Positions 108-30,377 of a DNA stretch of 56,042 bases are shown in pieces; position 1 is the stretch's first letter; every line of letters begins with the position of its first letter. Made by a program: the position numbers and the translations under genes. Under the pieces are notes generated by a model that searched no databases, was not told the DNA's origin, and saw only the letters and a list, made by a program, of their open reading frames with translations. This DNA comes from Actinomycetota bacterium. GTDB lineage: Bacteria > Actinomycetota > Acidimicrobiia > IMCC26256 > VFJJ01. The stretch lies in contig VFJJ01000063.1 in the NCBI GenBank assembly GCA_009886115.1, positions 1 through 56,042 of the forward strand, in the 5' to 3' direction.

Positions 108-642
108 GCAGAACGACGACCGAACCTCGACCACGAGCCGGGGAGCCGGGAGTGGGGTGACGCCGTCCACCGATCGCAGCACGGGTGCGGTGACTCCCGC
201 GTCCGGATCGAGCGGCGGCCCCCGATCGACGACGGTGAGCACTCGGGCGGGATCCCCGGGATCGTCCGGCGCCGGCTCCGGCAGCGGTGACGATGCCGTC
301 GCGGGTGACGTGAACCAGGGATCCGACGCCGCGCCCCTCGACGGTGGCGTCGTGGGGGGAAGTGGCGAGGATGTCTTCGGCAGCGGCAACGGGAGCGACG
401 TCTTCGGAGGCGGTGGGCTCGACGTGGGACAGCCACAGTCCGTCGGGGTTCGCTTCCTGTTCGACGCCGACGGGCGGCTCCGCCAGCTCGACCCCGGCGC
501 CGACAACCTCGACGGCGAGCCCGTGCTCTTCGCACGTGACCTGCCCTCGACCGTTCGGCTGTACGTGCTCGTGGGCGTCGCCGCGTTCGTGATCCTCGTT
601 CCCCCGTTCGTCGCGGCGCAACGCCGACGACGCCGATCGTGA
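1..642 (+). CDS. C-terminally anchored Pro/Gly-rich surface protein (5' end outside window)
   Basis: The frame is open from base 1, so the start lies upstream; 213 residues are visible. The visible part begins with a Pro-Pro-Gly-rich repeat, continues as a low-complexity Ser/Gly/Thr/Asp segment, and ends with a hydrophobic stretch (about residues 185-206) followed by five Arg and a final Ser. This is the layout of a protein exported and held by a C-terminal membrane anchor. LPST sits immediately before the hydrophobic stretch, resembling a sortase LPxT sorting signal, but the fifth residue is Val rather than Gly. The stop overlaps the start region of the next gene, which has the same type of C-terminal anchor, so the two are probably co-transcribed. 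No enzymatic domain is visible; the function is unknown. Confidence 0.7.
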   Translation, partial: PPPPGPPPPPGSPPPPGSPPPPGSPPPPGPPPPPGSQNDDRTSTTSRGAGSGVTPSTDRSTGAVTPASGSSGGPRSTTVSTRAGSPGSSGAGSGSGDDAVAGDVNQGSDAAPLDGGVVGGSGEDVFGSGNGSDVFGGGGLDVGQPQSVGVRFLFDADGRLRQLDPGADNLDGEPVLFARDLPSTVRLYVLVGVAAFVILVPPFVAAQRRRRRS

Positions 643-653
643 GGAGCACCGAC

Positions 654-2990
654 ATGACCGCTTCCCCCCATTCCCTTGCGAGCGGGACGCTCCTCGGGCG
701 CCGGCTGTTCCGGGTGGCCGGGCTGACGTGGCTCTTGGCATCGGTGTTGGCGACCTTGGTCGCGGTGGTCGTTCCGTCGGGTGGTGGTGTGGCGCATGCG
801 CAGGTGGGCCGGCAGGTGTCGTTGTCGCAGTCGACCTTGTTGGCTGATGATCAGGTGGTCACGGTGTCGTGGTCGGGGTTCACGCCGGGTGCGCCGGTGT
901 GGTTGCACGAGTGCGGGCCGGGGAGCCCGCCGGCGCCTCCGGCTGCGCTGGTTCCGCCGGCGTCGTGGACGAGTTGTGCGCCGCGGAGCCGGGTGTCGGG
1001 GGTGTCGGACGGCTCGGGTGCGGGAAGCGCGCAGTTCAAGGTCGATCGGAACGTCCCGGCGGTGTCGGGGAGCGCGACGACGGGGTTGACGTGCGGGCCG
1101 CTCGTGGCGGCGTCGAGTCCGTGTTGGTTGGCGGTGAGCGAGTGCGAGTTCGACGTGTTCGCGGGGCGGACGGTGGTGACCCGTCTGAACTTCGCTGCGG
1201 TGACGCCGTTGCCGAACACGACGACGACGACGACGGCGCCGCCGGCGACGACGACCACGACGCGTCCGTTGTTGGGGACGCCGAACCTGTCTGCGTCGGG
1301 TGGTGGTTCGGCGGGGCATGCGATCGGGGTGTGGGAGGTGGGTGCGGCGGGTCGTGGTGTGGTGCTCGATTACACGCGGTTGAACTCGCCGACGGGTCTG
1401 GACCGGTTCGTGTCGGGGAGCGTGAACGCGCAGATCGCGTTCAGCCGGATGGGGTTGTCGGGTCCGCAGTTGCAGGCGGTGCGTGACGCGGGTCGGGATG
1501 CGACGCATGTGCCGTTGGTGGCGGGGGCGACGGTGTTCGCGTTCTCTGGGAACTACTACGGGATCCCGATCACGAGGTTTCGTCTTTCGCCCGAGACGGT
1601 GTCGGGGATCTACCAGGGAGCTGTCCGTGACCTGAGCCACTCGTTGGTGACCGCCGATCACGGTGGCTGCCGTTTTCCCGCCGACCCGAAGACTGGTCGT
1701 GACTACCTGTTGTATCCGGGGGTGCGGACCGACTTGGCTGCGCAGTCGTTGCAGGTGAGCGAGTGGCTCGTTGCGACGGCGCCGAGTTGGACCGACGGGG
1801 CGTCGACGAACTTCCCGTTGGGGTCGAACGTGACGAACTTCTCGCGGAGTGCATCGGAGGAGCTGGCCAGGAAGATCGCCGATCCGTTGGCTGATGCGCT
1901 GGTCCCGTTCGACAGCTTGAAGGTGGCCTACGTCGATCTGTCGGATGCGCTCGAGTTCGGCTTGAACGTCGCCGAGATCGTCAATGCTGACGGTGACGTG
2001 GTGGGTCCGACACCGGCGGCGGTCGCGGCGTCGTTGGCGGCGTCGACGACGAACGCGGATGGTTCGATCGCGTTCGATCCGGCGGAGCCGGTCGACGGGG
2101 CGTATCCGTTGGTGAACTTCACGTATGCGGTGGTGCCGACGGTGGCGACGAGCGCGTTCACCGCAGCCCAGGGTGACCTGGCCCGGACCCTGCTCGACCA
2201 TGTGCTCGACCAGAACGGCGCCGACGTCGCCGATCTCGGGTTCTTCCCGTTGTCGGCCGCCCTCGCTGCCGGCGCGCGGACCCAGGCCAACCTGGTCCCC
2301 AGCGCCACCGGACCCACCACCACAACCACCACCACGACCACCACCACGACCACCACGACCAGCAGCTCGTCGACGTCGTCGACGTCGTCGACGACGAGCA
2401 CCACAAGAGCGTCGACGTCGTCATCGTCGAGCATCACGTCGACCACCAACGACCTCGGCGACAACGACCCCGACGGCGAGACCATCGTGGTCGACGACGA
2501 CGGGTTGGGAGATCCGCTCGGCGACGACGACCCGTTCGGCAGCTCCGGTGGCGGGAGCGGCGACTTCGACAGCGACTTCGGGAGCGGCTCCGGGAGCAGC
2601 TCCGGCAACGGATCGTTCGACACCGGAGAGCTCGGCGAGACGGGCGACACCAGCCTCGAAGGCTCCGGCGACGGTGGCGTGACCCCGGACGATCCTTCGG
2701 GCGATGCCGACGACGGCGGATCGGACGAGTCCGCAGGCGGTGTCGAGATCACCGATTCGGGTGACGAGGCCAACGACGTCCCCACGCTGCTCGCACCCAT
2801 CGCGTACGTCGCCGGGGGGAGCACCCCGGGGGTTCTGCTGCTCCTGCTGCTCGGTGCGGCGCTCCTGGCGGTCGGCGTGGTCACCCGGTTCGATGCCACG
2901 CGGTGGCGAGCGCTCCTCAGCGATGTCGGGCGGTTCGCGGGTGACATCAAGCGCAGCGCCCGGTCGAGCTTCCGACGGCCGGGGAGCTGA
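654..2990 (+). CDS. Mosaic surface protein: neocarzinostatin-like domain, PstS-like domain, Thr/Ser stalk, C-terminal TM anchor
   Basis: The ATG at 654 has AGGAG seven bases upstream and gives a good signal peptide (hydrophobic core WLLASVLATLVAVVV, cleavage near AHA); an in-frame GTG at 639 is the alternative. Residues about 50-185 resemble the neocarzinostatin/Ig-like fold (VTVSWSGFTPG, paired Cys, CEFDVFAG). A short Thr stalk follows. Residues about 210-560 resemble the PstS periplasmic phosphate-binding fold (NSPTGLDRFVSG, YPLVNFTYAVV). Next come a mucin-like Thr/Ser tract, an acidic Ser/Gly/Asp region, and a C-terminal TM helix near residues 722-743 with a basic tail. The Thr tract could be O-mannosylated. 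No pst transporter genes lie nearby, so the PstS-like domain may be an adhesin or a sensor. The 5' half uses many G- or T-ending codons, whereas the 3' half strongly prefers C-ending ones. Confidence 0.75.
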   Translation: MTASPHSLASGTLLGRRLFRVAGLTWLLASVLATLVAVVVPSGGGVAHAQVGRQVSLSQSTLLADDQVVTVSWSGFTPGAPVWLHECGPGSPPAPPAALVPPASWTSCAPRSRVSGVSDGSGAGSAQFKVDRNVPAVSGSATTGLTCGPLVAASSPCWLAVSECEFDVFAGRTVVTRLNFAAVTPLPNTTTTTTAPPATTTTTRPLLGTPNLSASGGGSAGHAIGVWEVGAAGRGVVLDYTRLNSPTGLDRFVSGSVNAQIAFSRMGLSGPQLQAVRDAGRDATHVPLVAGATVFAFSGNYYGIPITRFRLSPETVSGIYQGAVRDLSHSLVTADHGGCRFPADPKTGRDYLLYPGVRTDLAAQSLQVSEWLVATAPSWTDGASTNFPLGSNVTNFSRSASEELARKIADPLADALVPFDSLKVAYVDLSDALEFGLNVAEIVNADGDVVGPTPAAVAASLAASTTNADGSIAFDPAEPVDGAYPLVNFTYAVVPTVATSAFTAAQGDLARTLLDHVLDQNGADVADLGFFPLSAALAAGARTQANLVPSATGPTTTTTTTTTTTTTTTSSSSTSSTSSTTSTTRASTSSSSSITSTTNDLGDNDPDGETIVVDDDGLGDPLGDDDPFGSSGGGSGDFDSDFGSGSGSSSGNGSFDTGELGETGDTSLEGSGDGGVTPDDPSGDADDGGSDESAGGVEITDSGDEANDVPTLLAPIAYVAGGSTPGVLLLLLLGAALLAVGVVTRFDATRWRALLSDVGRFAGDIKRSARSSFRRPGS
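2314..2412 (+). repeat. Trinucleotide (ACC/ACG, then TCG) tract encoding a Thr/Ser stalk
   Basis: Degenerate ACC/ACA/ACG triplets run into GTCGTCGAC-type triplets, encoding an uninterrupted Thr run and then a Ser/Thr run. A second, shorter Thr tract lies at about 1216-1264 in the same gene. Both separate folded domains and look like extended surface stalks. Confidence 0.8.
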
Positions 2991-2995
2991 CGCCG

Positions 2996-4663
2996 ATGTC
3001 GACCGCGCGTCCTTCCGCTCTCGGGCCGACCCACCAGCGCGACGTGGTCACCACGACCACCGACCTGGTCCAGGTCGTCCGCGACGGTGTCGCCTCACTC
3101 GAAACCGAGGCTCGACGGGTCGGACCCGTGACCGAGGGCGAATCGTCGGACGAACCGGAGTTCATGCTCTTGCTGAAGGGTGTCAGCACGCTCCTCGAAC
3201 GGGTCCCGGCGTTCGCGCTCGACGAGCGCGAACGAGCGCTGATCGGAGCCCGGATCGACGATCTGGCGCGCTGGCATGCCGGTCGGGGTCGGTCGCGCAC
3301 CCCGGACAGCTCGATCGCCGCTGCCGGGCTCGAGCCCGTCACACCCGCCGCTCCTGCGCCACCCTCGCCGAGCACTCCGGTGCTGGAACTACCCGAGGCA
3401 GGTCCGGTGCTGGAACAGCAGCCGGCAGATCCGGTGTCGGAGGAGCAGCCGGCAGGTCGGGTGCTGGCGCAGCCCGCGCCAGGTCCGGTGCTGGAGGAGC
3501 AGCCGGCACAGGCACTGCCGCAGCTGCCTGCCCCGGTCGTTCCCGAGGATCCGGTCCTCGAGCACGGGGCGGGCGAACCCCGTGCGGTCTCCGATCCTCG
3601 GGGGCCTTCGCCGCTGCGGCGCCGGATCAGCCAGTTGATGACCGTCACCGGCGTGGTGATCGTGCTGTTCGTCGGCTACCTGCTTGTCGGCAGCGACGTC
3701 AGCCATCAGCGCGACCAGCGCGTCCTCGAGGACCGTCTCCAGCACCATCTCGTGCGGGCCAGCCAACTCGCGGCGCCCGTCGAGATCTTCTTCGAGACCG
3801 ATCCGGCCACGGGCGATCCTCAGATGCCCGAGCTGATCGGCCAACCCCTCGATGTCGCCGTTGCGGCACTCGAAGGACTCGAGTTGACCGTCCAGGTCCG
3901 GGCCACCAAGGACCCCGACGTTCCCGCGGGACGGGTCGTGGGGACCGACATCGAGACCGGCGCAGCGGTGCGCTCGGGAGCCGATGTCGTCGTCGAGGTG
4001 TCGAGTGGTCCGCCGGTCGGCTCGCCGATCGCCATGCTCGAGATCGACGCGGTCGGGGTGGAGGAGGTCGTCGTCGAGGCCACCGGCGCCAGTGAGCTCA
4101 AGGATGGGCCGGGCCACTACCGCGCCAGCTCGATGCCGGGCCACGTCGGCAACGTCGTGATCGCCGGTCGCCGGAGCACCTACGGTGGCCCGTTCTCGCG
4201 AATCGGTGAGCTCGATGCGGGTGACGAGATTCGTGTGACCACGGTGGACGGGGCGTTCACGTACGTCGTCGAGGCGACGGAGGTCGTCGAACGGGGCGAT
4301 CCCGACGTGATCGGCCCGACCGATGACGATCGCCTCACGCTCGTGACCGGCCACCCCCGGTTGCGAGCGGCCGAGCGTCTCGTCGTGACCGCGATCCTCG
4401 ACGGCGAGGCCCTGCCCGAGCCGTTGGGGATCGACCCGCCGACCGACGTCGAGCAGACCGAGACCGGGCTCTTCAGCGACGTCAGGGCGTGGGGCCCGAC
4501 GCTGTTCTGGGGGCAGCTCGTCCTCGGGGCCTACCTGGGGTTGCGGCTCATGGCACGACGGTGGCGTCGGTGGTCGACCTGGTTGGTGAGCACCCCGGTG
4601 CTGCTCGTCCTGGTGCTCGTCTGGTTCGAGAGCATCCACCGCCTGTTCCCGTCGACCCTGTGA
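2996..4663 (+). CDS. PASTA-domain plus class-E-sortase-like membrane protein lacking catalytic His and Cys
   Basis: 555 residues. The N-terminal 210 residues are cytosolic, with a Pro/Glu-rich part containing PVLEEQPA-like repeats. A TM helix at about 214-232 is followed by a PASTA domain (about 276-340, MPELIGQPLDVAVAALEGLE) and a class-E-sortase-like domain (about 341-470). Two more TM helices lie at about 502-520 and 528-545. Family members usually read VVIAGHR and TLxTCHP. Here the matching stretches read VVIAGRRSTYGGPFSRI and LTLVTGHPRL, so catalytic His is Arg392 and catalytic Cys is Gly452. The downstream Arg (R461 in AAERLVV) is kept. The fold appears intact, so this is probably a non-catalytic sortase-fold protein, perhaps a binding or scaffold partner for the two anchored proteins encoded just upstream. 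GGGGAG lies nine bases before the ATG, and the gap to the previous gene is five bases. Confidence 0.8.
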   Translation: MSTARPSALGPTHQRDVVTTTTDLVQVVRDGVASLETEARRVGPVTEGESSDEPEFMLLLKGVSTLLERVPAFALDERERALIGARIDDLARWHAGRGRSRTPDSSIAAAGLEPVTPAAPAPPSPSTPVLELPEAGPVLEQQPADPVSEEQPAGRVLAQPAPGPVLEEQPAQALPQLPAPVVPEDPVLEHGAGEPRAVSDPRGPSPLRRRISQLMTVTGVVIVLFVGYLLVGSDVSHQRDQRVLEDRLQHHLVRASQLAAPVEIFFETDPATGDPQMPELIGQPLDVAVAALEGLELTVQVRATKDPDVPAGRVVGTDIETGAAVRSGADVVVEVSSGPPVGSPIAMLEIDAVGVEEVVVEATGASELKDGPGHYRASSMPGHVGNVVIAGRRSTYGGPFSRIGELDAGDEIRVTTVDGAFTYVVEATEVVERGDPDVIGPTDDDRLTLVTGHPRLRAAERLVVTAILDGEALPEPLGIDPPTDVEQTETGLFSDVRAWGPTLFWGQLVLGAYLGLRLMARRWRRWSTWLVSTPVLLVLVLVWFESIHRLFPSTL

Positions 4664-4730
4664 GAGACACCGCTGTGCCGCCCATCAGCCCGGTCGCCAC
4701 GGACGGCGAAGCCCAGCCACGAGAGTGCCG

Positions 4731-5693
4731 ATGCCCTCGAATCGACTGACGCCGTTCATCGCAGCAGCTGTGCTCGTTGCCATCGTGATGGTGTCACCAG
4801 GAGCCGACGCGTCCGACGCATCCGATACCGCCGGCCCAGCGGGAGGGTCATCGACCGTCGAGTTGCCAGTGGACCTCTCGCCGGAGGTCGGCGCCGCGGC
4901 GATCGGCGCCATGAGCGTTGGCGCGGCCGCGGTCGTTCCCCAATCGCCGGTGGTGGGGATTGCGGCGACGCCGTCGGGCCTGGGGTATTGGTTGGTGGGG
5001 GCTGATGGTGGGATCTTCGCGTTCGGCGACGCCGCGTTCCTCGGTTCGATGGGCGGAGCCGCACTCCAGCGCGAGATCGTGGGGGTGGCTGCGACGCCTT
5101 CGGGTCGGGGGTATTGGTTGGTGGGGGCTGATGGTGGGATCTTCGCCTTCGGCGACGCCCACTTCGCCGGATCGACGGGGAGCTTCCGGCTCAACCGTCG
5201 GATCGTGGCGATTGCTGCGACGCCTTCGGGTCGGGGGTATTGGTTGGTGGCGGCTGATGGTGGGATCTTCGCGTTCGGTGACGCCCACTTCGCCGGATCG
5301 ACCGGAGGCATCGCCCTGAACCGGGCGATCGTGGGGATGGCTGCGACGCCTTCGGGTCGGGGGTATTGGTTGGTGGCGGCTGATGGTGGGATCTTCGCGT
5401 TCGGTGACGCGACGTTCCACGGATCGCCGGCCACCACCCCGGCCAGCCAGAACATCGTTGCGATGATCGCCGATCTCGACGGGGCCGGGTATCTCCTCGT
5501 CGGGGGAGCCGGAGCCATCTTCCCGTTCGGAGCGGCCCGGGCCCGAGGCGGTGCGGTGACGCTCGACCTCGTCGGGGCGGTGGTCGGGATCGTCCGCTCG
5601 GGGTCGGGCAGCGCCTATTGGCTCGGTGCGGCTGACGGTGGCGTCTTCTCGTACGGAAGTGCTCCCTTTCTGGGCTCGCTCTACACCAAGTGA
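4731..5693 (+). CDS. Secreted repeat protein with GYWLV-ADGGIFAFGDA repeats
   Basis: 320 residues from the ATG at 4731; a GTG two codons earlier is also possible. A signal peptide covers about the first 30 residues. The rest is built of 42-residue units with the core GYWLVxADGGIFAFGDA: four are nearly identical, followed by two or three diverged ones (GYLLVGGAGAIFPFG, AYWLGAADGGVFSYG). The pattern suggests beta-propeller blades or a solenoid. I associate this repeat with exported proteins of Acidimicrobiia and relatives, usually at the ends of larger enzymes. Here it stands alone, without an enzymatic domain. The repeated segments use codons such as GGT, GAT and TTG that are scarce in neighbouring genes. 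A diverged form of the repeat also ends the M23 peptidase at 20121-21794. The biochemical role is unknown. Confidence 0.75.
   Translation: MPSNRLTPFIAAAVLVAIVMVSPGADASDASDTAGPAGGSSTVELPVDLSPEVGAAAIGAMSVGAAAVVPQSPVVGIAATPSGLGYWLVGADGGIFAFGDAAFLGSMGGAALQREIVGVAATPSGRGYWLVGADGGIFAFGDAHFAGSTGSFRLNRRIVAIAATPSGRGYWLVAADGGIFAFGDAHFAGSTGGIALNRAIVGMAATPSGRGYWLVAADGGIFAFGDATFHGSPATTPASQNIVAMIADLDGAGYLLVGGAGAIFPFGAARARGGAVTLDLVGAVVGIVRSGSGSAYWLGAADGGVFSYGSAPFLGSLYTK
4950..5453 (+). repeat. Four near-identical 126-nt coding repeats
   Basis: Units begin at about 4950, 5076, 5202 and 5328, spaced exactly 126 nt. The shared block includes TCGGGGTATTGGTTGGTG and GCTGATGGTGGGATCTTC. Identity at the DNA level, including synonymous positions, implies recent duplication or ongoing gene conversion. 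Confidence 0.85.
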
Positions 5694-5872
5694 CCCTCAG
5701 ACACGCGCGTCCGAAGGTAGTCACTGTACGTCGTAACGTCGCCACAGAACAATAGAAATATCAGCCGCAACGTATGGCGAAGTTCACCCCAAGTTGTCGT
5801 AGGTGTCATGGCCGTCCCTTAGAACTGGTGGTGCGGAGATTCCGCAACATCCACCGATTTGGGGAGGGTACT

Positions 5873-7153
5873 TTGAAGCGAAGCAGGAAAGTCCTGATGC
5901 TCATGAGCCTGGGAGCGATTGCAGCTACTGCGATCATTCCCAGTGCTGGGGCGCTCCCGCCGCCCGGCAGTCCCGGATTGAACCCCGGCCTGAACGACGT
6001 CGTCGACAAGATCCAGGGTTACGGCTCCGACACCACCTACCCGCTGATGCAGCAGCTCGACGCGGCGTTCAACGGATCGCTGGGCTGCAACCAGGCTGCT
6101 CCGACGTCACCGTACGCCGGCGAGATCCAGAACACCTGTCTCCCGTTCGCGGCGCAGCCCCCGGGCGTGGTCCTGAACGAGAACTGGGACCACGACGCGG
6201 CGATCAGCTACTTCCCGCAAGGCTCGTCGGCTGGTCGCCGTCAGCTCTGCGAGCAGGACGTACCTCGGCCCGGCGGCATCGCGATCACCGACTACGCCCG
6301 TTCGTCGAGCGCCCCGAGCACGACGCCGACGTGTGGCGGCGCAGCCGGCCCGCACACGTTCCGCTTCGTGGCCTTCGCCCGTGACGCTCTCACCTGGGTG
6401 AAGTTCAACACGGTGGGTGGCGGCAGCACCCCTGTGACCAACCTCACGACGGTGCAGCTCAACGAGATCTTCGTGAACTGCGACCTCGAGGTCGGCGATG
6501 CCTTCCCCACGACATACTGGGACGAGGGAACCATCGGCGGCGCGAACCACAACCCGATCCGGGTGTGGAGCGTCCAGAGCGCCTCAGGCACCAGGGCCAC
6601 CTGGGACGGGTTCGTCGGCGGCAACAGCACGCTGTGCATCCCGGCCATCTACAAGGACGGGCTCCCGGCCAACGGCGAGCGCGTGATCCAGGAGCACAAC
6701 GCGGCACCGGTCGTCAGTGCCGTCAACGACGCTGACGCAGCCGACGAGGGCAACTCGATCTTCTACTACGGGTTCGGTCGCTACCAGGTGACCGGTGGAG
6801 AAGGCTCGATCCTCGGAAGCGTCAACGGCATCGCCCCGACCGAAGCCACCATCCAGAACGCGACCTTCCCCTTCGGTCGCTTCGTCTACAACGTGTACCG
6901 CCAGGCCGGCACCGGTCCGACGCTCGCTCCGTACGCGAACGGCTACATCGGATCGTCGGGTTGGATCTGCAAGCCTCCGGGCCAGCACGCCGAGCCCCCG
7001 GGCACGCCCGGCGTCGGCATCGAGGTCGGTGCTGCGCCGGTCGACTACGGCCAGCTGGTCCACGATGTCATCCGCTCGCAGGGCTTCATCCCCCTGCGGA
7101 CCGACATCCAGAACGTGAACCGTTGCGACTTCACCGACGTCGTGTACCCCTGA
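5873..7153 (+). CDS. Secreted PstS-like substrate-binding protein
   Basis: A TTG start at 5873 is favoured: GGGGAGGG lies just upstream, and it places a basic n-region (KRSRK) before the hydrophobic segment VLMLMSLGAIAATAII. An open frame continues upstream to 5774 but has no good start. The mature protein begins at about ALPPPGSPG. The fold looks like a PstS/PBP-like phosphate-binding protein: GYGSDTTYPLMQQL near the N terminus, SYFPQGSSAGRRQLC and AITDYARSSS where ligand-binding Ser/Asp residues normally lie, then a C-terminal lobe with several Cys. It lacks a lipobox and is longer than typical PstS (about 426 residues). No pstCAB genes accompany it, so high-affinity phosphate uptake is not demonstrated; extracellular binding or adhesion is possible. 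A hairpin at 7231-7258 probably ends the transcript. Confidence 0.75.
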   Translation: MKRSRKVLMLMSLGAIAATAIIPSAGALPPPGSPGLNPGLNDVVDKIQGYGSDTTYPLMQQLDAAFNGSLGCNQAAPTSPYAGEIQNTCLPFAAQPPGVVLNENWDHDAAISYFPQGSSAGRRQLCEQDVPRPGGIAITDYARSSSAPSTTPTCGGAAGPHTFRFVAFARDALTWVKFNTVGGGSTPVTNLTTVQLNEIFVNCDLEVGDAFPTTYWDEGTIGGANHNPIRVWSVQSASGTRATWDGFVGGNSTLCIPAIYKDGLPANGERVIQEHNAAPVVSAVNDADAADEGNSIFYYGFGRYQVTGGEGSILGSVNGIAPTEATIQNATFPFGRFVYNVYRQAGTGPTLAPYANGYIGSSGWICKPPGQHAEPPGTPGVGIEVGAAPVDYGQLVHDVIRSQGFIPLRTDIQNVNRCDFTDVVYP

Positions 7154-7230
7154 TCTGAGCTCGCCCACAGTCAGATCAAGCACCGGTCCGCACCGGTGAC
7201 AAGTATTGCGTAACTCATCGATTGCAGCAG

Positions 7231-7258
7231 CCGGGGTTCGGCACATGCCGAGCCCCGG
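7231..7258 (+). terminator. Hairpin, probable factor-independent terminator
   Basis: Arms CCGGGGTTCGGCA and TGCCGAGCCCCGG pair over 13 positions with a single G-T wobble. The hairpin lies 78 bases after the PstS-like stop. Only two T follow, as is common in GC-rich actinobacteria. Confidence 0.6.
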
Positions 7259-7268
7259 TTGCCGCGCG

Positions 7269-7296
7269 TTGACACCAAAGACTGTTCACGTAGATC
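7269..7296 (+). promoter_or_regulatory. Candidate sigma-70-type promoter for the polysaccharide locus
   Basis: A perfect -35 hexamer TTGACA (7269-7274) is followed after 16 bases by TAGATC (7291-7296). A strong Shine-Dalgarno AGGAGGTG sits at 7313-7320. This lies directly after the terminator-like hairpin and before the glycosyl-1-phosphate transferase gene. The -10 match is weak. Confidence 0.4.
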
Positions 7297-7339
7297 GCCA
7301 GTCAGCGGGTAGAGGAGGTGAGCAAGCGAGCTCCGACTG

Positions 7340-9055
7340 ATGTATACCGAGAGTTCGCATCAACGTCGTCTTCTGGCAAATCTCTCATTCCTTCGAGCGG
7401 TCAAACTCAACTCCGTGGACGCCACGGCACAGCACCCTCGTTCGTTTCCCGTATCCGAGCGTCATCTGGATGATGCTCCTTCGAGCGGCTCGGGCGGTCA
7501 CCGGCGCAGAACGCTGGACGCTCGGCTCGTCGGTCGGAACCTGACCCGGCTCGCGCTCGACATCGTCGGCGCCTCCGTCGGCGCTCTCGTCGCACGTGAT
7601 GCGGTGGGATCGGCGGTGTCGGTGGCCGAGCCCGAGCCGTGGTGGATCGCCGCCGCCGTGGTCCTGTTCGTCGGCGCCCGGTTCGCGACCGGCGCGTATC
7701 ACCGGGTGTGGACCGAGTCGCCGGGCGAGCTGATCGCCGTCTGGAAGGCCTGCGCCGCCGGGCTGGCCGCGGCCCTCGCCCTCGCCTTCGTCGCCGACTC
7801 CGACATGCCCGATCGCTGGGCGAGTGCGGCCGCCTTCACGACGGGCACCTTTGTGATGGCCCTGACGCTCCTCGAGCGCCGGACGGTGCGGTGGTTGCGC
7901 CTCCGGGGACGGATGCGCTGCCGGCTCCTGCTCGTCGGGGCGGGTGGCGACGTCGAACCGATGATCGAGATGCTGGCCGAGCATCCGGAGTGCGGCATCG
8001 ACGTCGTCGGCATCGCCGGACCCGGTGTGTCCGACCGGGCCGATCTGCTGGTGCCCTGGTTCTCGCCCCGAGCCGGTGCCGGAACCCGCCCGACGAACAG
8101 CGGGGCCGCCGACGCGCTCTCGGATGTGCCGGAGCTCGATGTCGACGGCATCTTGCTGCTGCCGGCGTCGGTGGGTGCCCCGACGGCGAACGCCTGTGCT
8201 CGAGCGGTGCGCCGCGTCGGCGGGGCGGTGCTCGTGGCCGGCCCGGTTCGGGGCGCGACCGCTTCATGCCTGCGACCGTCGACCGTGGCCCGCGAGCCGC
8301 TGTGGGACTATCGCGACGCCAGGCTCGGACCGGCGCAGCGCTTCGTCAAGCGCACCCTCGACCTGGGTCTGGGTCTCGTGCTCAGCCTCGTCGCCCTTCC
8401 CGTCATGGGGATCGTCTCGGTGGCGATCATGGTACGAGACGGTCGCCCGATCTTCTTCCGCCAGGTGAGGGTCGGGCGCGACGGCGAGCCGTTCACCATG
8501 TTCAAGTTCCGCACGATGGTGCCCGACGCCGAGCACCGGGTCATCGACCTCCGCTGCGCCAACGAGCGCACCGGACCCCTGTTCAAGCTCACCGACGACC
8601 CCCGGGTCACGCGTGTCGGGCGCTTTCTTCGGACCACCAGCCTCGATGAGCTCCCGCAGCTCATCAACGTGCTGGGCGGCGCGATGAGCCTGGTCGGGCC
8701 CCGTCCCGCCCTCCCGGCCGAGGTCGCCACCTTCGACGAGGCGCTGCTCGATCGGCACCGTGTGAAGCCCGGCATCACCGGGTTGTGGCAGGTCGAGTCA
8801 CGCGACTCCCCGTCGTTCGCCGCCTATCGCCGCCTCGACCTGCACTACGTCGAGAACTGGTCGGTGGGTCTCGACCTGGAGCTGATCGCTCGGACCATCG
8901 GGTCCGTGGCGACGCGAGGGCTCACGCTCGGGCGCGGGTCGAAGGTCGCTGAAGCGCCGCCGCCGTTCAGGGTCCTCGCTGAGGCTCCGGTACAGGTCAA
9001 CGACGGGTTCGTCGGGTTCACAACAGAGCGAGAGGAGCGCCCGTGCGCATCGTGA
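7340..9055 (+). CDS. Polyprenyl-phosphate glycosyl-1-phosphate transferase (WbaP/WcaJ type)
   Basis: Initiates lipid-linked polysaccharide assembly by moving a sugar-1-phosphate from a nucleotide sugar to undecaprenyl or decaprenyl phosphate at the membrane. The N-terminal half has several hydrophobic segments (about residues 70-170) and a soluble NAD-binding-like region (RCRLLLVGAGGDVEPM). The catalytic bacterial sugar-transferase domain starts at about residue 333 with RFVKRTLDLGLGLVLSL. It carries MFKFRTMVPDAE, TTSLDELPQLINVLGGAMSL, VGPRPALP and KPGITGLWQVE, all hallmarks of the family. Length 571 is typical of the long form. The ATG at 7340 lies 20 bases beyond the only strong SD (7313-7320), an unusually long gap; an in-frame TGA at 7319-7321 excludes an earlier start. 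The 3' end overlaps the next gene by 13 bases. Confidence 0.9.
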   Translation: MYTESSHQRRLLANLSFLRAVKLNSVDATAQHPRSFPVSERHLDDAPSSGSGGHRRRTLDARLVGRNLTRLALDIVGASVGALVARDAVGSAVSVAEPEPWWIAAAVVLFVGARFATGAYHRVWTESPGELIAVWKACAAGLAAALALAFVADSDMPDRWASAAAFTTGTFVMALTLLERRTVRWLRLRGRMRCRLLLVGAGGDVEPMIEMLAEHPECGIDVVGIAGPGVSDRADLLVPWFSPRAGAGTRPTNSGAADALSDVPELDVDGILLLPASVGAPTANACARAVRRVGGAVLVAGPVRGATASCLRPSTVAREPLWDYRDARLGPAQRFVKRTLDLGLGLVLSLVALPVMGIVSVAIMVRDGRPIFFRQVRVGRDGEPFTMFKFRTMVPDAEHRVIDLRCANERTGPLFKLTDDPRVTRVGRFLRTTSLDELPQLINVLGGAMSLVGPRPALPAEVATFDEALLDRHRVKPGITGLWQVESRDSPSFAAYRRLDLHYVENWSVGLDLELIARTIGSVATRGLTLGRGSKVAEAPPPFRVLAEAPVQVNDGFVGFTTEREERPCAS

Positions 9056-23677: not shown

Positions 23678-23757
23678 CAAGGGCTTCACCAGGCAGGACC
23701 GGCTCAGGGTGAGCGATACGCCGCCAGGAGCTGAGAGCAGTTCCCCCCACCGGCAAC

Positions 23758-23797
23758 GTGGTGCCCGCCCTCTCCCGCCCCCCGGGGCGGGCACCAC
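23758..23797 (+). other. Strong GC-rich stem-loop in the leader of the NHL gene
   Basis: Arms GTGGTGCCCGCCC (23758-23770) and GGGCGGGCACCAC (23785-23797) are a perfect 13-bp inverted repeat with a 14-nt loop. No T-run follows. It lies 144 bases after the DUF839 stop and 55 bases before the NHL gene start. It could be a terminator, an mRNA-stabilising hairpin or a protein-binding palindrome. Confidence 0.65.
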
Positions 23798-23852
23798 AGC
23801 CCGGACCGCCGCAGCACACCGTTTGCGGCTCGCGCCCCCCAGGAGCACACCA

Positions 23853-26800
23853 ATGCCGCTGTCGAGACTCCGCCGCTTCGTCGCTCGCCGGAGCTGGCGC
23901 GATTGGGCACTCGTCGTCGCCCCGTTCCTCGTGGGCTCGATGCTGATCGCCTCGACGGGCGGATCGCGCGCCACGGCCGCTCCGGTGTTCGACCCCCACC
24001 CGGTCCGCGTGCTCGGCGGGCCCGGTCACGCCGGTCTCTACGGCTGGGGTGTGGCCCGGATGCTCGACGGCACGATGCTCGTGGGCGACTACCTGAACAA
24101 GCGGGTCGTCCGCTACGACAGCGACGGCACACCGTTGGGAACCTTCATCAACAACGTCGGCTACGCCGACAGCCAGCACCAGTCGCCGTACGGGATGGGC
24201 GTCGACCCGGTGACCGGCGACATCTACCTCGCCGACACCGACAACCGCCAGGTCGACAAGTACTCGGCCGACGGCACCTATCTCCTGTCGATCGGCACGG
24301 TCGGCACCGGGCCGGGGAAGTTCCAGTACCCGTCGCGTGTGGCGGTGAGCCCCGACCGGCGGGTGTACATCGTCGACAGCTGGGACCACCTGGTCTCGGT
24401 CCACCAGCCCGACGGCACCGAGCTCTTCGCGTTCGGAGGCCTGGGCTCGGGCAACGGCAAGTTCCGGCAGATCCACGGTGCCGCGTTCGACGCCGCCGGT
24501 CGGATCTTCGTGGCCGACGAGGGAAACAGGCGGATCCAGGTCTTCGACGGCTCCGGCGTGTTCCTCTTCAAATTCGGCTCGGAGGGCTCGGGTCCGGGCC
24601 AGTTCCTCTTCGACCTGCGCGGCGTGGCCATCGACCAGGCTCAGGGCTGGGTCTACGTGGTCGACGCCGGTGGGAACCAGGTCGAGAAGTTCGACACGTC
24701 GGGCAACTTCATCGAGAGCATCGGCTCCGAGGGCATCGGTGACGGCCAGTTCACCGACGGCGGGCGCGAGATCGCTGTCGGGCCCGACGGCCGGATCTGG
24801 GTGGGCGACATGCCCAACTTCCGCGTCCAGGTCTTCGAGCCCGACGGCACGTTCGCGTTCCTCCGGCCCGATCCCCCGGCGCCGCCGCCCCTCGGCCGCT
24901 TCAATGCGCCGCGAGGCGTCGCTGTCGACTCCAACGGCGCGATCTTCGTCACCGACACCGCGAACCAGCGCATCCAGAAACTCGATGCCAACGGTGAGTA
25001 CCTGGCCGGCTGGGGCTCACGCGGCCGTGGCAACGACCGGTTCAACTACGCCAGGTTGATCGCCACCGACCCCGTCTCGGGCGATGTCGTGGTTGTCGAC
25101 ACCGACAACCACGTGATCAAGAAGTTCACCGGTGATGGCACGTTCGTCTGGGCTGCCGCAGGAGTTCGGGGCTCGGGCGTCAACCAGATGAGGAACCCCC
25201 ACGGCGTCGACATCGCGCCGAACGGGACGATCTACGTGACCGACGCCAACAACGATCGCATCGTCGTGCTCGGCTCGGACGGATCCTGGATCGGGAGCTT
25301 CGGCACCAGCGGAACGGGAGACGGGCAGTTCCTGTTCCCCCGTGGCGTCGCCGTCGACCCGCTCGACGGGACCCTCTGGGTCTCCGACTCCAACCGCAAC
25401 GACGTTCAGCACCTCACCGCCAACGGCGTGTTCATCAGCCGTTTCGGCTCCGCCGCGCTCGGGCCCAACCGGCTCCTGCGCCCGTTCGACGTCGAGGTCG
25501 GTCCCGAGTGGATCTTCGTGGCCAGCTCAGGTACCCATGAGGTCAAGGCCTTCGACCGGACAGGCACCTATGTCGGCACGATCGGAGGGTTCGGCACGGG
25601 TCTGGGCCGCCTGAGCATCCCCCAGGGCATGGAGCTCACACCCGACGGGCATCTCTACGTGGCCGAGCAGGGCAACGACCGGGTGACGGAGTTCGCCTTC
25701 CAGGCCCTCGGAACCAGCGGGACGGTGCCCAGCGAGGTGGCCTCCTTCGGCGGTCCTGGTCACGCGGCCATGTATCCCTCGGGCCTCGAGACCACTCCCG
25801 GCGGGGGGATCGTCGTCGCCGACACCGGCAACAGCCGGCTCCGCCGCTACGACGCCAGCGGAGCGCTCCTGTGGAGCGTCGGGGGCCAGGACGACGGGCC
25901 GGGCGAGCTCGACAACCCCCGCGACGCGGGCGTCGACCCCGTCTCGGGCCAGATCTACGTCGCCGACACCGGGAACAACCGCGTCGCGGTGTTCTCGGCG
26001 GCTGGCGCATACCTGTTCAGCCTGTCGCCCCCCGACGGGGCCGCGTTCAGCTCGGTGATCGGTGTCACCGTGCGCAACAACCGGGTGCTGGTCGCCGACG
26101 CGGGTCGCCAACAGGTCAGGATCTTCAACCTCGCAGGCAACCACATCCGCTCGTTCGGCAGCAGCGGCGCCTGCGTCGTCGGACAGCTCCGCGACATCGA
26201 CGCCGACGCCTCCAACAACGTCTACATCGCGAACTACACGCTCAACACGATCGTCAAGATGTCGGGTACGGGGACCTGCCTGCTCTCCTGGGGCACCAAG
26301 GGCACGGGGCCGGGCCAGTTCGCCAACCCCTACGGTGTCGCCGTCGAGACTCCCCCGGGCGGTGCCGCGCGGGTGCACGTGGCCGATTCGAACAACAACC
26401 GGGTGCAGGTGTTCACCACGGCCGGGGTCTTCGTCGAGGAGATCCCGATGTCGCTCGCCGGGGCGCCGGCCAGCGCGTCGCCGGCTCTGCGACGAGTTGC
26501 CGTCGACAGCGCAGGGGCCGTGTGGATGGCCGACCTGTGGGGGAATCGGGCGATCAGGTTCACCGGCGGCGCCGGGGCCTGGACCGCCGCGCAGACCATC
26601 GGCGGGACCGCAGCCCCGCTGGCTCCGACCCAGGTGTTCAACGAGGTGCGCAGCCCCACCTTCACCGCCGCCGGCGATCTCGTCGCCGTCGACACCGTGA
26701 ACCACCGCATCGTGACGTTCGCGCCCGACGGCTCGATCGCCTCGACCTGCGGGAACCGCGGCTTCGAGGAGATCGGTGGGTTCAACTGGCCGCGTGGTGT

Positions 26801-29800
26801 CGCTGCCGACCCGGTGTCGGGATACCTGTGGGTGGCCGACACCAAGCAGAACCGGCTCCAGGTGCTCCGGCCCGATTGCACCGCGGTCACCCGCATCGGC
26901 GCCTCGGGATCGGGCGCCACCCAGTTCAACTGGCCGCACGCCATCGCCTACCGGGCATCCGACCAGACCATGTGGGTGGCCGACACCCGCAACAACCGCA
27001 TCAAGGTCTACAGCGCGACGACCCAGGCCCTGCTGGCCACGTTCGGCACCCGGGGTGCTGGAGTGGGCCAGTTCGACCAGCCCCGCGGGATCTCGGTCGA
27101 CCCCAACGGCCAGATCTGGGTGGCCGACACCCGCAATGACCGGGTCGTGGCGCTCGATGTCTCAGCCGGGGCCACGACGTTCGCCACCGCGAGGGTGATC
27201 AGCGGTTTGTTCAACGGCCCGGAAGGAGTGGCGGCCGACGACGAGGGCCGCATCTACGTGGCCGACACGCAGAACGACCAGGTCACGATCCTCGATTCCT
27301 CGGGAACCCCGCGTGGTGTGTTGCGAGGCTTCCTCGAACCGGCGTCGGTGACCGTGGGGCCCGACGGTCATCTCTACGTCGCCGACACCTACCAGGACCG
27401 TGTCGTCGAGTACGCCTGGCCGACGCTCCCGCCGCCGCCGCCCGCCTTGGGCTATGAGGCGACGTTGCTCGACGGGGCCGTCCCCGACATGTACCCCGTC
27501 GACATCGCGGCCTCCGCCAGCCGGTACTACGTGCTCGACCCCGGGCGCTACCGAATCGTCGGCATCAACCGCGCGACCGGGGCCATCGACGTGACGACGG
27601 GCGACCCTACCGGTCTACCGACGCTGGGCGCTGCGCGCGCACTCGATCGCGACTCGACGGGCAAGGTGTACGTGGCCGACACCGGCGACAACCAGATCGT
27701 GGTCTACGGCGCCAACCTCAACTTCCTCAGGGAGTGGGGCGCCACGGGCACCGGGCCGGGCGAGTTCCAGCGGGTGTACGGCGTGGCCGTCGGCCCGGGG
27801 AACACCGCTCTCGGGGAGCCCGCCGAGGTCGTCTACGCCGTCGACGACCCGGGCCGGATCCAGGTGTTCACCCTCACCGGCGACTATCTCCGAGAGTTCG
27901 GGGGCGCGCCGGCGCTCGACAGCCCCCGCCAGATGTCGGTGAACCCGGTGACGGGCAACCTCTACGTGATCAGCGCCCGTGACCGCGAGGTCGTTGTCTT
28001 CGATCCCCTGACCGGCGTCGAGCAGTTCCGCTTCGGTGGTGCTGGCAGCGGGCCCGGGCAGTTCAACGACGACCCGCGCGGCATCACGATCTCGGCCGAC
28101 CAGCGGGTGTTCGTGACCGACGCCGGGAACCACCGGGTCCAGGAGTTCACCGCCACCGGGACCTTCGTCGCCGTCATCGGCAGCCAGGGGGCCGGTGCCG
28201 GACAGTTCACCGGCCCCCGCGGCCTGGCCGTGACCGCTGACGGCCTGCTGGCCGTGGCCGACGAGTGGGATTTCGCCGTCGAGGAGTTCACGATCGACGG
28301 GACACACGTCCGGCGGCTCTTCGGGACGCCGCCACCGGTTGACGGGGTGCACATCCCCCGGGGCGTCGCCGTCGACGGCTCCGGACGGGTTCTCAGCGTC
28401 GACTGGTGGAACCAGCGGGTCGTCGAGATCGATCCCGACGGCACCGACGTGTCGGCCTACGGATACCGGGGTGATCGCAGCGACCCCGGGTCGTTGAACT
28501 TCGCCTACGACGTGGCCGTGCAGCCCTCGACCCAGCGACGCTTCGTGGCCAACCGCGAAGGCCACGAGATCGTGGTCTTCGCGCCCGACGGATCGTTCGT
28601 GACCCGCTTCGGCGTGCGGGGAGCAGCCGACGGGCAGTTCACCTTCCCGACCGGCGTCGCCTTCGATCCTGACGGCACCCTGCTGGTCGCCGACTCGACC
28701 AACGACCGCATCCAACGCTTCTCGATCGCTCCCGGTGGGGTCGGGACGTGGATCCAGAACATCGGACAGTCGGGCAACCGGGCTGCCGGAGCAGGATTCC
28801 TGAACAATCCGACCGACGTCGCCGTTGCCGCCGACGGGACCCTGTGGGTGACCGACACGTTCAACAACAGCATCCAGCGGCGCCTCCCCGACGGCACGTG
28901 GACCCGCTACATCACGTACGGGGGCACCGAGTTGTTCGACCCCCGGGGCATCGATGTCGCCGACGACGGCTCGGTGTGGATCGCCGACGCCGGCAACAAC
29001 CGGATCGTGGCCATCGAGGCCGACGGGGTCGAGCGCCTGGTGCGCTCGGGAACCGACCTCGGTATCGGGGCGTTCGCCTACCCGTTCGGGATCGCCGCCG
29101 GCCCGGCCGGCGCGGTGTATGTGTCCGACATGTGGCACGACCGCGTGGTGGCGCTGCGTCACTTCCACGATGCGGTCGCCCCCGAGACGACCCTGGGTTT
29201 CCCGGCGCAGGCGAGCCTCGTGGTGGCCAGCGACGTCGACGTTCGTGGATCGGCATCGGATGACGGTCGGGTCGACGAGGTGCGGCTCACCGTTCGCGAC
29301 CTCGCCACAGGCGATTTCTGGCAGGGCGGCGTCGCGTGGGGTGAGACGGTCGAGCACTTCGCCGAGCTGAGCGCTCCCGGAGCGGTCCAGACCCCGTGGA
29401 CGTTCCGATGGCTCCCGTCCTTCGGTGGCAACTTCGAGATCGTCGCCACGGCCTACGACGCCTACGGCCGACCCGACCCGACGCCGGTGGTGAGGCAGTT
29501 CAGCTACGAGCTGCCGGCTCCGGGCCAGGCATACCTGACGCTGATGTTCGGGCGCACCCAGTGGCAGCAGCTCGAGCAGTGCAACCCGATCCCCGGGACC
29601 GTGCCCCTCGACCGTGTCGCCGACGATCTCACCGCCCGGGGGTTGACCGCCGTCGGACCCGTGGTGATCGACCGGACGAACGAGACGACCCGGGTGTGCG
29701 ACAACCAGATCTTCGAGCACGCGTCGTGGGCCGATCTCGCGATGTTGCGTGACGTGCACGGCTGGAGCTTCATCAGCAACGGCACGACCCACGACGACAT

Positions 29801-30377
29801 CACGCTGATGACCCCGGCACAGCAGCTCCAGGAGAGCTGCGGATCGTTGCCGCCCCTCGAGGCGCACGGTCACGACCGGGCCTGGGGGCTGTTCGCGTAC
29901 GGCAACAACCGCTACACCCAGGCGCTGCAGACGAACCTGGTGTCGACGTGCTTCTCGTACGGACGGCGCTACTTCAACACGATCAACGATCGCTCGACGA
30001 TGTCAGCACCCTGGTTCACCAACACCCGCTCGTACAACGGTGGCAAGTGCAACAACGCGGCACTGGCCTGTTTCACGATGACCGTGCCCACGAACCGGTT
30101 CTACGAGAGCCCGACGGTGTTGGCGTCGCTGATGGCTCCCGGACCCGAGCAGTGGAGCATCGTCCAGCTCTACCGCTTCGTCGAGGGTTCGAAGCTGACC
30201 GGCGTCGACCGGTGGGACTGCACCAGCTCCGACTGGCGCAACCACTACACCTCACGGCCCGAGCTCTACTGCTACAACGACTATCTCTCGGCGATCGACA
30301 CGATCCCGACGAACGTCTCGGTCACCGATCCGGCGACCGTCGCCGAGAACTGGGGCCGGGGCAACCCCAATCAATGA
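23853..30377 (+). CDS. Giant secreted NHL-repeat protein with polysaccharide-deacetylase-like C-terminal domain
   Basis: 2174 residues; ATG at 23853 with AGGAG seven bases upstream; signal peptide or anchor in WRDWALVVAPFLVGSMLIAS. I count 36 NHL blade signatures of the form YVADTxNxRVxxF, in three blocks of 12 (about 575 residues each). Blocks begin near 23989, 25735 (VASFGGPGHAAMYPSG, like VLGGPGHAGLYGWG of block 1) and 27445 (LGYEATLLDGAVPDMYP). Each block would suit two six-bladed propellers. A beta-sandwich-like module follows (about 1778-1886, VRLTVRDLATGDFWQGG). The C-terminal ~280 residues resemble NodB-type polysaccharide deacetylases (SWADLAMLRDVHGWSFISNG, THDD, LFAYGNN), but the TFDD motif and the first His of the metal site are not preserved. 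It may bind or process extracellular polysaccharide. The stop overlaps the next start (ATGA). Confidence 0.82.
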   Translation: MPLSRLRRFVARRSWRDWALVVAPFLVGSMLIASTGGSRATAAPVFDPHPVRVLGGPGHAGLYGWGVARMLDGTMLVGDYLNKRVVRYDSDGTPLGTFINNVGYADSQHQSPYGMGVDPVTGDIYLADTDNRQVDKYSADGTYLLSIGTVGTGPGKFQYPSRVAVSPDRRVYIVDSWDHLVSVHQPDGTELFAFGGLGSGNGKFRQIHGAAFDAAGRIFVADEGNRRIQVFDGSGVFLFKFGSEGSGPGQFLFDLRGVAIDQAQGWVYVVDAGGNQVEKFDTSGNFIESIGSEGIGDGQFTDGGREIAVGPDGRIWVGDMPNFRVQVFEPDGTFAFLRPDPPAPPPLGRFNAPRGVAVDSNGAIFVTDTANQRIQKLDANGEYLAGWGSRGRGNDRFNYARLIATDPVSGDVVVVDTDNHVIKKFTGDGTFVWAAAGVRGSGVNQMRNPHGVDIAPNGTIYVTDANNDRIVVLGSDGSWIGSFGTSGTGDGQFLFPRGVAVDPLDGTLWVSDSNRNDVQHLTANGVFISRFGSAALGPNRLLRPFDVEVGPEWIFVASSGTHEVKAFDRTGTYVGTIGGFGTGLGRLSIPQGMELTPDGHLYVAEQGNDRVTEFAFQALGTSGTVPSEVASFGGPGHAAMYPSGLETTPGGGIVVADTGNSRLRRYDASGALLWSVGGQDDGPGELDNPRDAGVDPVSGQIYVADTGNNRVAVFSAAGAYLFSLSPPDGAAFSSVIGVTVRNNRVLVADAGRQQVRIFNLAGNHIRSFGSSGACVVGQLRDIDADASNNVYIANYTLNTIVKMSGTGTCLLSWGTKGTGPGQFANPYGVAVETPPGGAARVHVADSNNNRVQVFTTAGVFVEEIPMSLAGAPASASPALRRVAVDSAGAVWMADLWGNRAIRFTGGAGAWTAAQTIGGTAAPLAPTQVFNEVRSPTFTAAGDLVAVDTVNHRIVTFAPDGSIASTCGNRGFEEIGGFNWPRGVAADPVSGYLWVADTKQNRLQVLRPDCTAVTRIGASGSGATQFNWPHAIAYRASDQTMWVADTRNNRIKVYSATTQALLATFGTRGAGVGQFDQPRGISVDPNGQIWVADTRNDRVVALDVSAGATTFATARVISGLFNGPEGVAADDEGRIYVADTQNDQVTILDSSGTPRGVLRGFLEPASVTVGPDGHLYVADTYQDRVVEYAWPTLPPPPPALGYEATLLDGAVPDMYPVDIAASASRYYVLDPGRYRIVGINRATGAIDVTTGDPTGLPTLGAARALDRDSTGKVYVADTGDNQIVVYGANLNFLREWGATGTGPGEFQRVYGVAVGPGNTALGEPAEVVYAVDDPGRIQVFTLTGDYLREFGGAPALDSPRQMSVNPVTGNLYVISARDREVVVFDPLTGVEQFRFGGAGSGPGQFNDDPRGITISADQRVFVTDAGNHRVQEFTATGTFVAVIGSQGAGAGQFTGPRGLAVTADGLLAVADEWDFAVEEFTIDGTHVRRLFGTPPPVDGVHIPRGVAVDGSGRVLSVDWWNQRVVEIDPDGTDVSAYGYRGDRSDPGSLNFAYDVAVQPSTQRRFVANREGHEIVVFAPDGSFVTRFGVRGAADGQFTFPTGVAFDPDGTLLVADSTNDRIQRFSIAPGGVGTWIQNIGQSGNRAAGAGFLNNPTDVAVAADGTLWVTDTFNNSIQRRLPDGTWTRYITYGGTELFDPRGIDVADDGSVWIADAGNNRIVAIEADGVERLVRSGTDLGIGAFAYPFGIAAGPAGAVYVSDMWHDRVVALRHFHDAVAPETTLGFPAQASLVVASDVDVRGSASDDGRVDEVRLTVRDLATGDFWQGGVAWGETVEHFAELSAPGAVQTPWTFRWLPSFGGNFEIVATAYDAYGRPDPTPVVRQFSYELPAPGQAYLTLMFGRTQWQQLEQCNPIPGTVPLDRVADDLTARGLTAVGPVVIDRTNETTRVCDNQIFEHASWADLAMLRDVHGWSFISNGTTHDDITLMTPAQQLQESCGSLPPLEAHGHDRAWGLFAYGNNRYTQALQTNLVSTCFSYGRRYFNTINDRSTMSAPWFTNTRSYNGGKCNNAALACFTMTVPTNRFYESPTVLASLMAPGPEQWSIVQLYRFVEGSKLTGVDRWDCTSSDWRNHYTSRPELYCYNDYLSAIDTIPTNVSVTDPATVAENWGRGNPNQ

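Follow-up and report, generated by a model that had tools for sequence, protein, structure and literature searches.

A sortase-like protein without the catalytic His and Cys is linked to pst loci in Actinomycetota

The window, as we call the whole stretch of 56,042 nucleotides that was analysed, encodes a sortase-like protein in which the catalytic His and Cys are replaced by Arg and Gly. With a probability of roughly 0.9, we regard its gene as a pst-linked pseudo-sortase. We define this lineage here by Arg or Lys in place of His together with the absence of Cys, by an adjacent PstS-like protein that lacks the phosphate motif, by a place on the dead side of the sortase tree and by pst permeases in the locus. 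The window protein and the partner encoded next to it show the first three of these features, and the contig ends ahead of any permease gene. Sequence data show the sortase fold, the loss of residues across the lineage, the conserved neighbourhood, the fusion of partner and dead sortase in two genomes, and purifying selection in near pairs. The protein is probably a class-E-derived, non-catalytic, membrane-anchored accessory of the phosphate transporter Pst, where it would form a complex with a PstS-like partner no longer binding phosphate in the usual way.

The features of the locus are listed in Table 1. In the dead sortase, about 210 residues that are predicted to be cytoplasmic precede the first transmembrane (TM) helix. 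The PASTA domain matches Pfam PF03793 (3.2e-9; 37.1 bits at a cut-off of 23.2) and the sortase domain matches Pfam PF04203 (6e-26, above the cut-off). The top NCBIfam match of the protein is class E sortase NF033747 (2.3e-33), with a score of 115.8 bits that lies under the curated cut-off of 160. Nine dead relatives score between 56 and 121 bits on this profile, and the canonical class E sortase of the same genome, a second sortase with AGHR and TTCHP on the separate contig C159, passes with 190 bits. Across its sortase domain, the window protein aligns with solved class D and E sortases.

The initial annotation had described a class-E-like sortase domain with Arg392 in place of His, Gly452 in place of Cys and a retained Arg461, and both numbering and codons of these residues were verified. 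It had also proposed that the fold is preserved without the catalytic residues. This was borne out by an AlphaFold2 model, in which the pLDDT exceeds 90 across much of the sortase domain and for which the best PDB matches found with Foldseek are sortases (SrtD 4d70, E-value 1.6e-14; SrtE 5go5/5go6, target TM-score 0.76-0.77). By fold and profile the protein belongs to the sortase superfamily; as an enzyme with His, Cys and Arg it does not, having R392, G452 and R461 at these positions. There is no Cys in the whole 555-residue protein.

Table 1. Positions of the features in the window; codons are given for the three catalytic positions.
Feature	Position	Strand	Remarks
ORF open at contig start	1..642	+	Pro/Gly-rich linker, one TM, basic tail
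PstS-like partner	639..2990	+	neocarzinostatin-like aa 60-167; PstS-fold ~aa 240-551; linker; C-terminal TM; basic tail
Dead sortase ORF P0001	2996..4663	+	555 aa
TM1 of dead sortase, aa 214-232	3635..3691	+	hydropathy; helix in model
PASTA domain, aa 276-336	3821..4003	+	Pfam
Sortase domain, aa 348-467	4037..4396	+	Pfam; model and PDB matches
Arg392 (CGC), catalytic His position	4169..4171	+	
Gly452 (GGC), catalytic Cys position	4349..4351	+	
Arg461 (CGT), catalytic Arg position, retained	4376..4378	+	
C-terminal TM pair of dead sortase, limits approximate	4493..4633	+	Glu close to end (FESIHRLFPSTL)
Secreted PBP	5774..7153	+	PBP_like_2, PstS superfamily; usual third gene of unit

Relatives were sought in 58 genomes of the window's order, in about 395 of its class and then in the phylum. 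Nearly all of the 58 order genomes contain sortases, mostly canonical, and a subset of these proteins is degenerate at the two sites that are altered in the window protein. When the class was searched with an alignment of degenerate sortases (A1), degenerate sequences ranked at the top. Together with searches using the partner protein, this gave further dead sortases in other orders, and the phylum search gave four in other classes (G395, G561, G639 and G590). The resulting 36 rows represent 34 distinct genes, with the window's own gene and one of G106 repeated, from several orders of the class and from other classes of the phylum. The distribution is patchy, as the module occurs in a few dozen of the approximately 395 class genomes. 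A scan of genome contigs detected distant canonical sortases only.

In the dead rows, the His position is occupied by Arg (34 of 36) or Lys (2), and the Cys position by Ser (18), Ala (9), Gly (3), Thr (2), Met (1) or Val (1), with a gap in two rows. The catalytic Arg is gone in about half of the dead sortases. All 80 canonical rows have His, Cys and Arg. Hence, the residues of the window protein obey a rule, with Arg replacing His and no thiol. More than 30 relatives have equivalent replacements, and the loss is not local. Since the relatives share the loss, the search did not lead to orthologues with intact His and Cys, which the initial annotation had named as speaking against it. Compared with most dead sortases, the window copy has kept a larger part of the ancestral motif (TGHPR, AGRRSTYGGPF). 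All 11 rows of A1 have a Glu in the last TM helix (position E343; FESIHRLFPSTL in the window), which many of the remoter members (alignment A3) have replaced.

A tree was calculated from 98 sortase domains after removal of the three catalytic columns. In this short alignment, a branch with support of 99/92 separates 34 rows (32 dead sortases and two HSQ sequences, L065 and L066) from 64 canonical rows; all canonical rows are on one side and the window copy is on the dead side. Grouping of the dead rows apart from L065 and L066 is weakly supported (77/28), as is the order inside the dead side, where the window copy is placed near the base. L065 (1668-2090, minus strand) and L066 (6445-6852, plus strand) keep the His, with Ser for Cys and Gln for the catalytic Arg, and form a second, separate degenerate group. 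Despite their member-like look, they were set apart from the dead lineage because they have no pst neighbours. Near pairs of dead sortases gave dN/dS values of 0.085/0.433, 0.004/0.033 and 0.311/0.932, the last pair being near saturation. Judged from these pairs, the dead sortase is maintained as a protein by purifying selection.

A PstS-type gene lies within 4 kb in 31 of the 34 dead or degenerate rows (one gene entered twice) and in none of the 64 canonical rows (Fisher 1.9e-22). The count is favoured by a bias in flank length, as the canonical loci had a median of 1.7 kb and most dead loci had longer flanks. The three rows without such a neighbour are L050, which is located at a contig edge, and the His-keeping pair L065 and L066. 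In the dead loci, the distance to the PstS-type gene is mostly 0.5-1 kb. In the usual unit of three genes, a membrane-anchored PstS-like protein is encoded first, then the dead sortase and then a secreted binding protein; the unit is usually found within a full pst locus. The loci of the relatives hold two permeases, identified by BPD_transp_1 matches, an ATPase, for which pstB was recognized from its sequence, and a PstS that has the phosphate motif. In the window's order, these transporter genes are mostly divergent from the three genes of the unit; in other orders, a large part of the locus is co-directional and two extra membrane-anchored genes can separate the partner from the dead sortase. 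The canonical class E sortase of the window's genome (L064, G000:C159) and that of a second genome (L062) adjoin ABC/heme-export-like (ccm-type) genes, which were named by eye.

Two genomes, G034 and G035, encode the PstS-like domain together with the dead sortase in one ORF; the fused ORFs have 1000 aa (L067) and 1324 aa (L068). L068 (ORF 4616-8587) has more than 100 Thr/Ser-rich low-complexity residues inserted inside its sortase domain. In a reverse check of the 395 genomes, 19 partner matches reached at least 457 bits, and all those not truncated at a contig end adjoin a dead sortase. The initial annotation had suggested a link of the dead sortase to the surface genes upstream, and the two upstream ORFs do each finish in a TM segment and a basic tail. 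Conserved neighbours and the fusion in two genomes make the link to the upstream gene stronger than it had supposed, while the pst locus and the lost ligand motif of the partner had been overlooked.

The gene order in the window is partner, dead sortase, repeat protein and secreted PBP. The repeat protein (4725-5693), which lies in the interval between dead sortase and secreted PBP, is no fixed component of the module. The contig ends at base 1, ahead of any permease gene. The tail of the ORF at 1-642 is similar to the TM-plus-RRRR tails of operon PstS proteins (L042-L044), and by this similarity the ORF is probably the C-terminal end of a pst-operon PstS. An LPSTV ahead of its TM segment was given no weight, as the operon PstS tails read in relatives are without such a motif. 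A second pst operon of the same genome is found on contig C195 (L166, G000:C195) in the order PstS, permease, permease, PstB; joining this contig to the window was dismissed, as the ends do not overlap. At 23709-30374, the window also contains a very long ORF of about 2222 aa.

A profile of 11 partner proteins matches PstS3 at 5.8e-27, and the model of the partner, which is of moderate confidence, matches PstS in the PDB at 3.8e-11 (Foldseek). The linker ahead of its C-terminal TM segment is of low complexity. The phosphate motif R-x-D-G-S-G-T is missing in the partner, which reads RTDLAAQS in the window and RxExNADT in most relatives. The PstS of the pst operon retains the motif as RSDGSGTT, and in E. 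coli PstS the residues at this position hold phosphate. The partners have a common motif of their own, R-x-E-x-N-A-D-T (alignment A2), so their ligand may have been changed rather than lost. The secreted PBP retains the motifs GSDTT, GSSAG and SGT. Thus, an intact binding protein accompanies two proteins that are each without their old function, given the missing motif of the partner and the missing residues of the sortase.

The PHO box of actinobacteria consists of 11-bp direct repeats with GTTCACC (PMC9019756). In the dead-sortase loci, we counted 14 repeats of the type GTTCA-N6-GTTCA, with 0.8 expected from single-base shuffles and with a pattern that let the first G be C; in 272 kb of control loci there were none. 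Some of these repeats are located in the divergent intergenic region and several are outside the partner's promoter. The own genome contains 11 such repeats and one for the reversed pattern, and none was found in the window. As a sequence signal, the enrichment supports a tie of the module to the phosphate regulon in general, but not at the window locus.

The fusion to a PASTA domain had been regarded initially as a key feature. This did not hold, as PASTA is absent from every other dead sortase examined, and as a defining feature it was discarded. The stretch between TM helix and sortase domain comprises 106 residues in the window and 24-62 in the other dead sortases. From these comparisons, PASTA looks like a late addition to the window's copy. 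Binding of muropeptides cannot be a common function, since no other examined dead sortase has this domain.

We propose that the gene descends from a class E sortase, with an ancient loss of His and Cys and with recruitment to the locus of the Pst phosphate ABC transporter. Partner and pseudo-sortase would probably assemble into a single complex on the external side of the membrane, where their TM helices would hold it; this complex would neither transport nor cleave. It could act as a docking or sensing platform, and its most likely task would be to handle the secreted binding protein next to the Pst permease when phosphate is limiting. The dead sortase may serve as receptor or scaffold, as suggested initially; the PASTA domain of the window's copy might add a contact to the cell wall. 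A broader interpretation has slightly less than even odds in our judgement: dead sortase and dead PstS may constitute one membrane receptor or sensor serving the secreted binding protein, which would be a non-enzymatic, phylum-wide surface module of Pst and the first family of sortase pseudoenzymes with a fixed partner and pathway.

Other explanations were considered. The intact fold would suit a groove that binds LPXTG-type tails uncleaved and thereby retains or shields surface proteins there. One sub-lineage has, immediately upstream of the dead sortase, a gene for a protein with a terminal LPXTG-like signal and a TM segment (IPRTG in L150, LPVTG in L152, LPRTG in L154, LPGTG in L156, LPMTG in L159 and VPVTG in L161). 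However, the window and the loci of its order have no such gene in the interval from partner to dead sortase, the tail of the window's partner is without LPXTG, and the motif may be a signal for a canonical housekeeping sortase encoded at another site of the genome. We consider this role unlikely. It is quite improbable that the Arg at the His position and the old catalytic Arg form an anion pocket which reports phosphate to Pst/PhoR: Arg or Lys is present at the His position in every dead row and the pst neighbourhood would fit, but the second Arg is gone in about half of the dead sortases.

An enzyme using another nucleophile or other chemistry is very improbable. Ser is found most often in place of the Cys, in 18 of 36 rows, yet the window has Gly and no Cys, and others have Ala, Val, Met or Thr. 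A serine-type sortase is unlikely in view of the Gly, Ala, Val and Met members, and the Arg or Lys everywhere in place of the His and the loss of the catalytic Arg in about half of the dead sortases also speak against an enzyme. No more credible is a wall sensor in which PASTA does the work and the sortase remnant is a mere spacer. The domain matches Pfam well and resembles the PASTA of PknB, but the other examined dead sortases conserve sortase domain and TM segments without it. The codons of R392 and G452 (CGC and GGC) are each one base from His CAC and Cys TGC, which would fit a sequencing error or a decaying gene. Both were dismissed and their chance is close to nil: equivalent replacements recur across independent assemblies, in more than 30 relatives altogether, the frames are open, and dN is well below dS in the near pairs.

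In the open-access literature, a scope with subscription journals mostly outside it, we found no published sortase pseudoenzyme or pseudosortase, no sortase with PstS or in pst loci, and nothing relevant on a class E sortase with PASTA. The lineage represents a catalytically dead offshoot of a known fold that is placed in a new setting, and a pst-linked, non-enzymatic surface part has apparently not been described. Sortases are known and annotated as transpeptidases; the dead lineage would carry a wrong annotation wherever it is present. Its tie to a motif-less PstS in pst loci suggests that the sortase fold has a non-catalytic use which has so far been overlooked, and that high-GC Gram-positive bacteria possess an additional layer for capturing or sensing phosphate. 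Moreover, these proteins make the question of whether a sortase fold can serve as a receptor testable.

Class E sortases (SrtE of Streptomyces, 5go5; of Thermobifida, 9iok; and the C159 protein of the own genome) share with the dead sortase the fold and the GPGH...PG..GN motifs, and canonical class E copies of the same order likewise have an N-terminal TM helix and a C-terminal TM pair. In contrast to them, the dead sortase has Arg for His and Gly, Ser or Ala for Cys, scores below the NCBIfam class E cut-off, sits in a pst locus and, in the window's copy, carries PASTA. The loci of the relatives have the two permeases, the ATPase and the phosphate-motif PstS of the transporter PstSCAB, to which a second, motif-less and TM-anchored PstS-like protein, the dead sortase and a secreted PBP are added. 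As in PknB/Stk1, a PASTA repeat is located on the extracytoplasmic part of a membrane protein, but in the window protein there is no kinase, the PASTA is single and it is not conserved in the family. In pseudoenzymes such as dead kinases and dead rhomboids, selection keeps the fold after the catalytic residues are gone, and the protein has a fixed partner. The dead sortase resembles them in a fold that is kept under selection and in its tie to a fixed partner.
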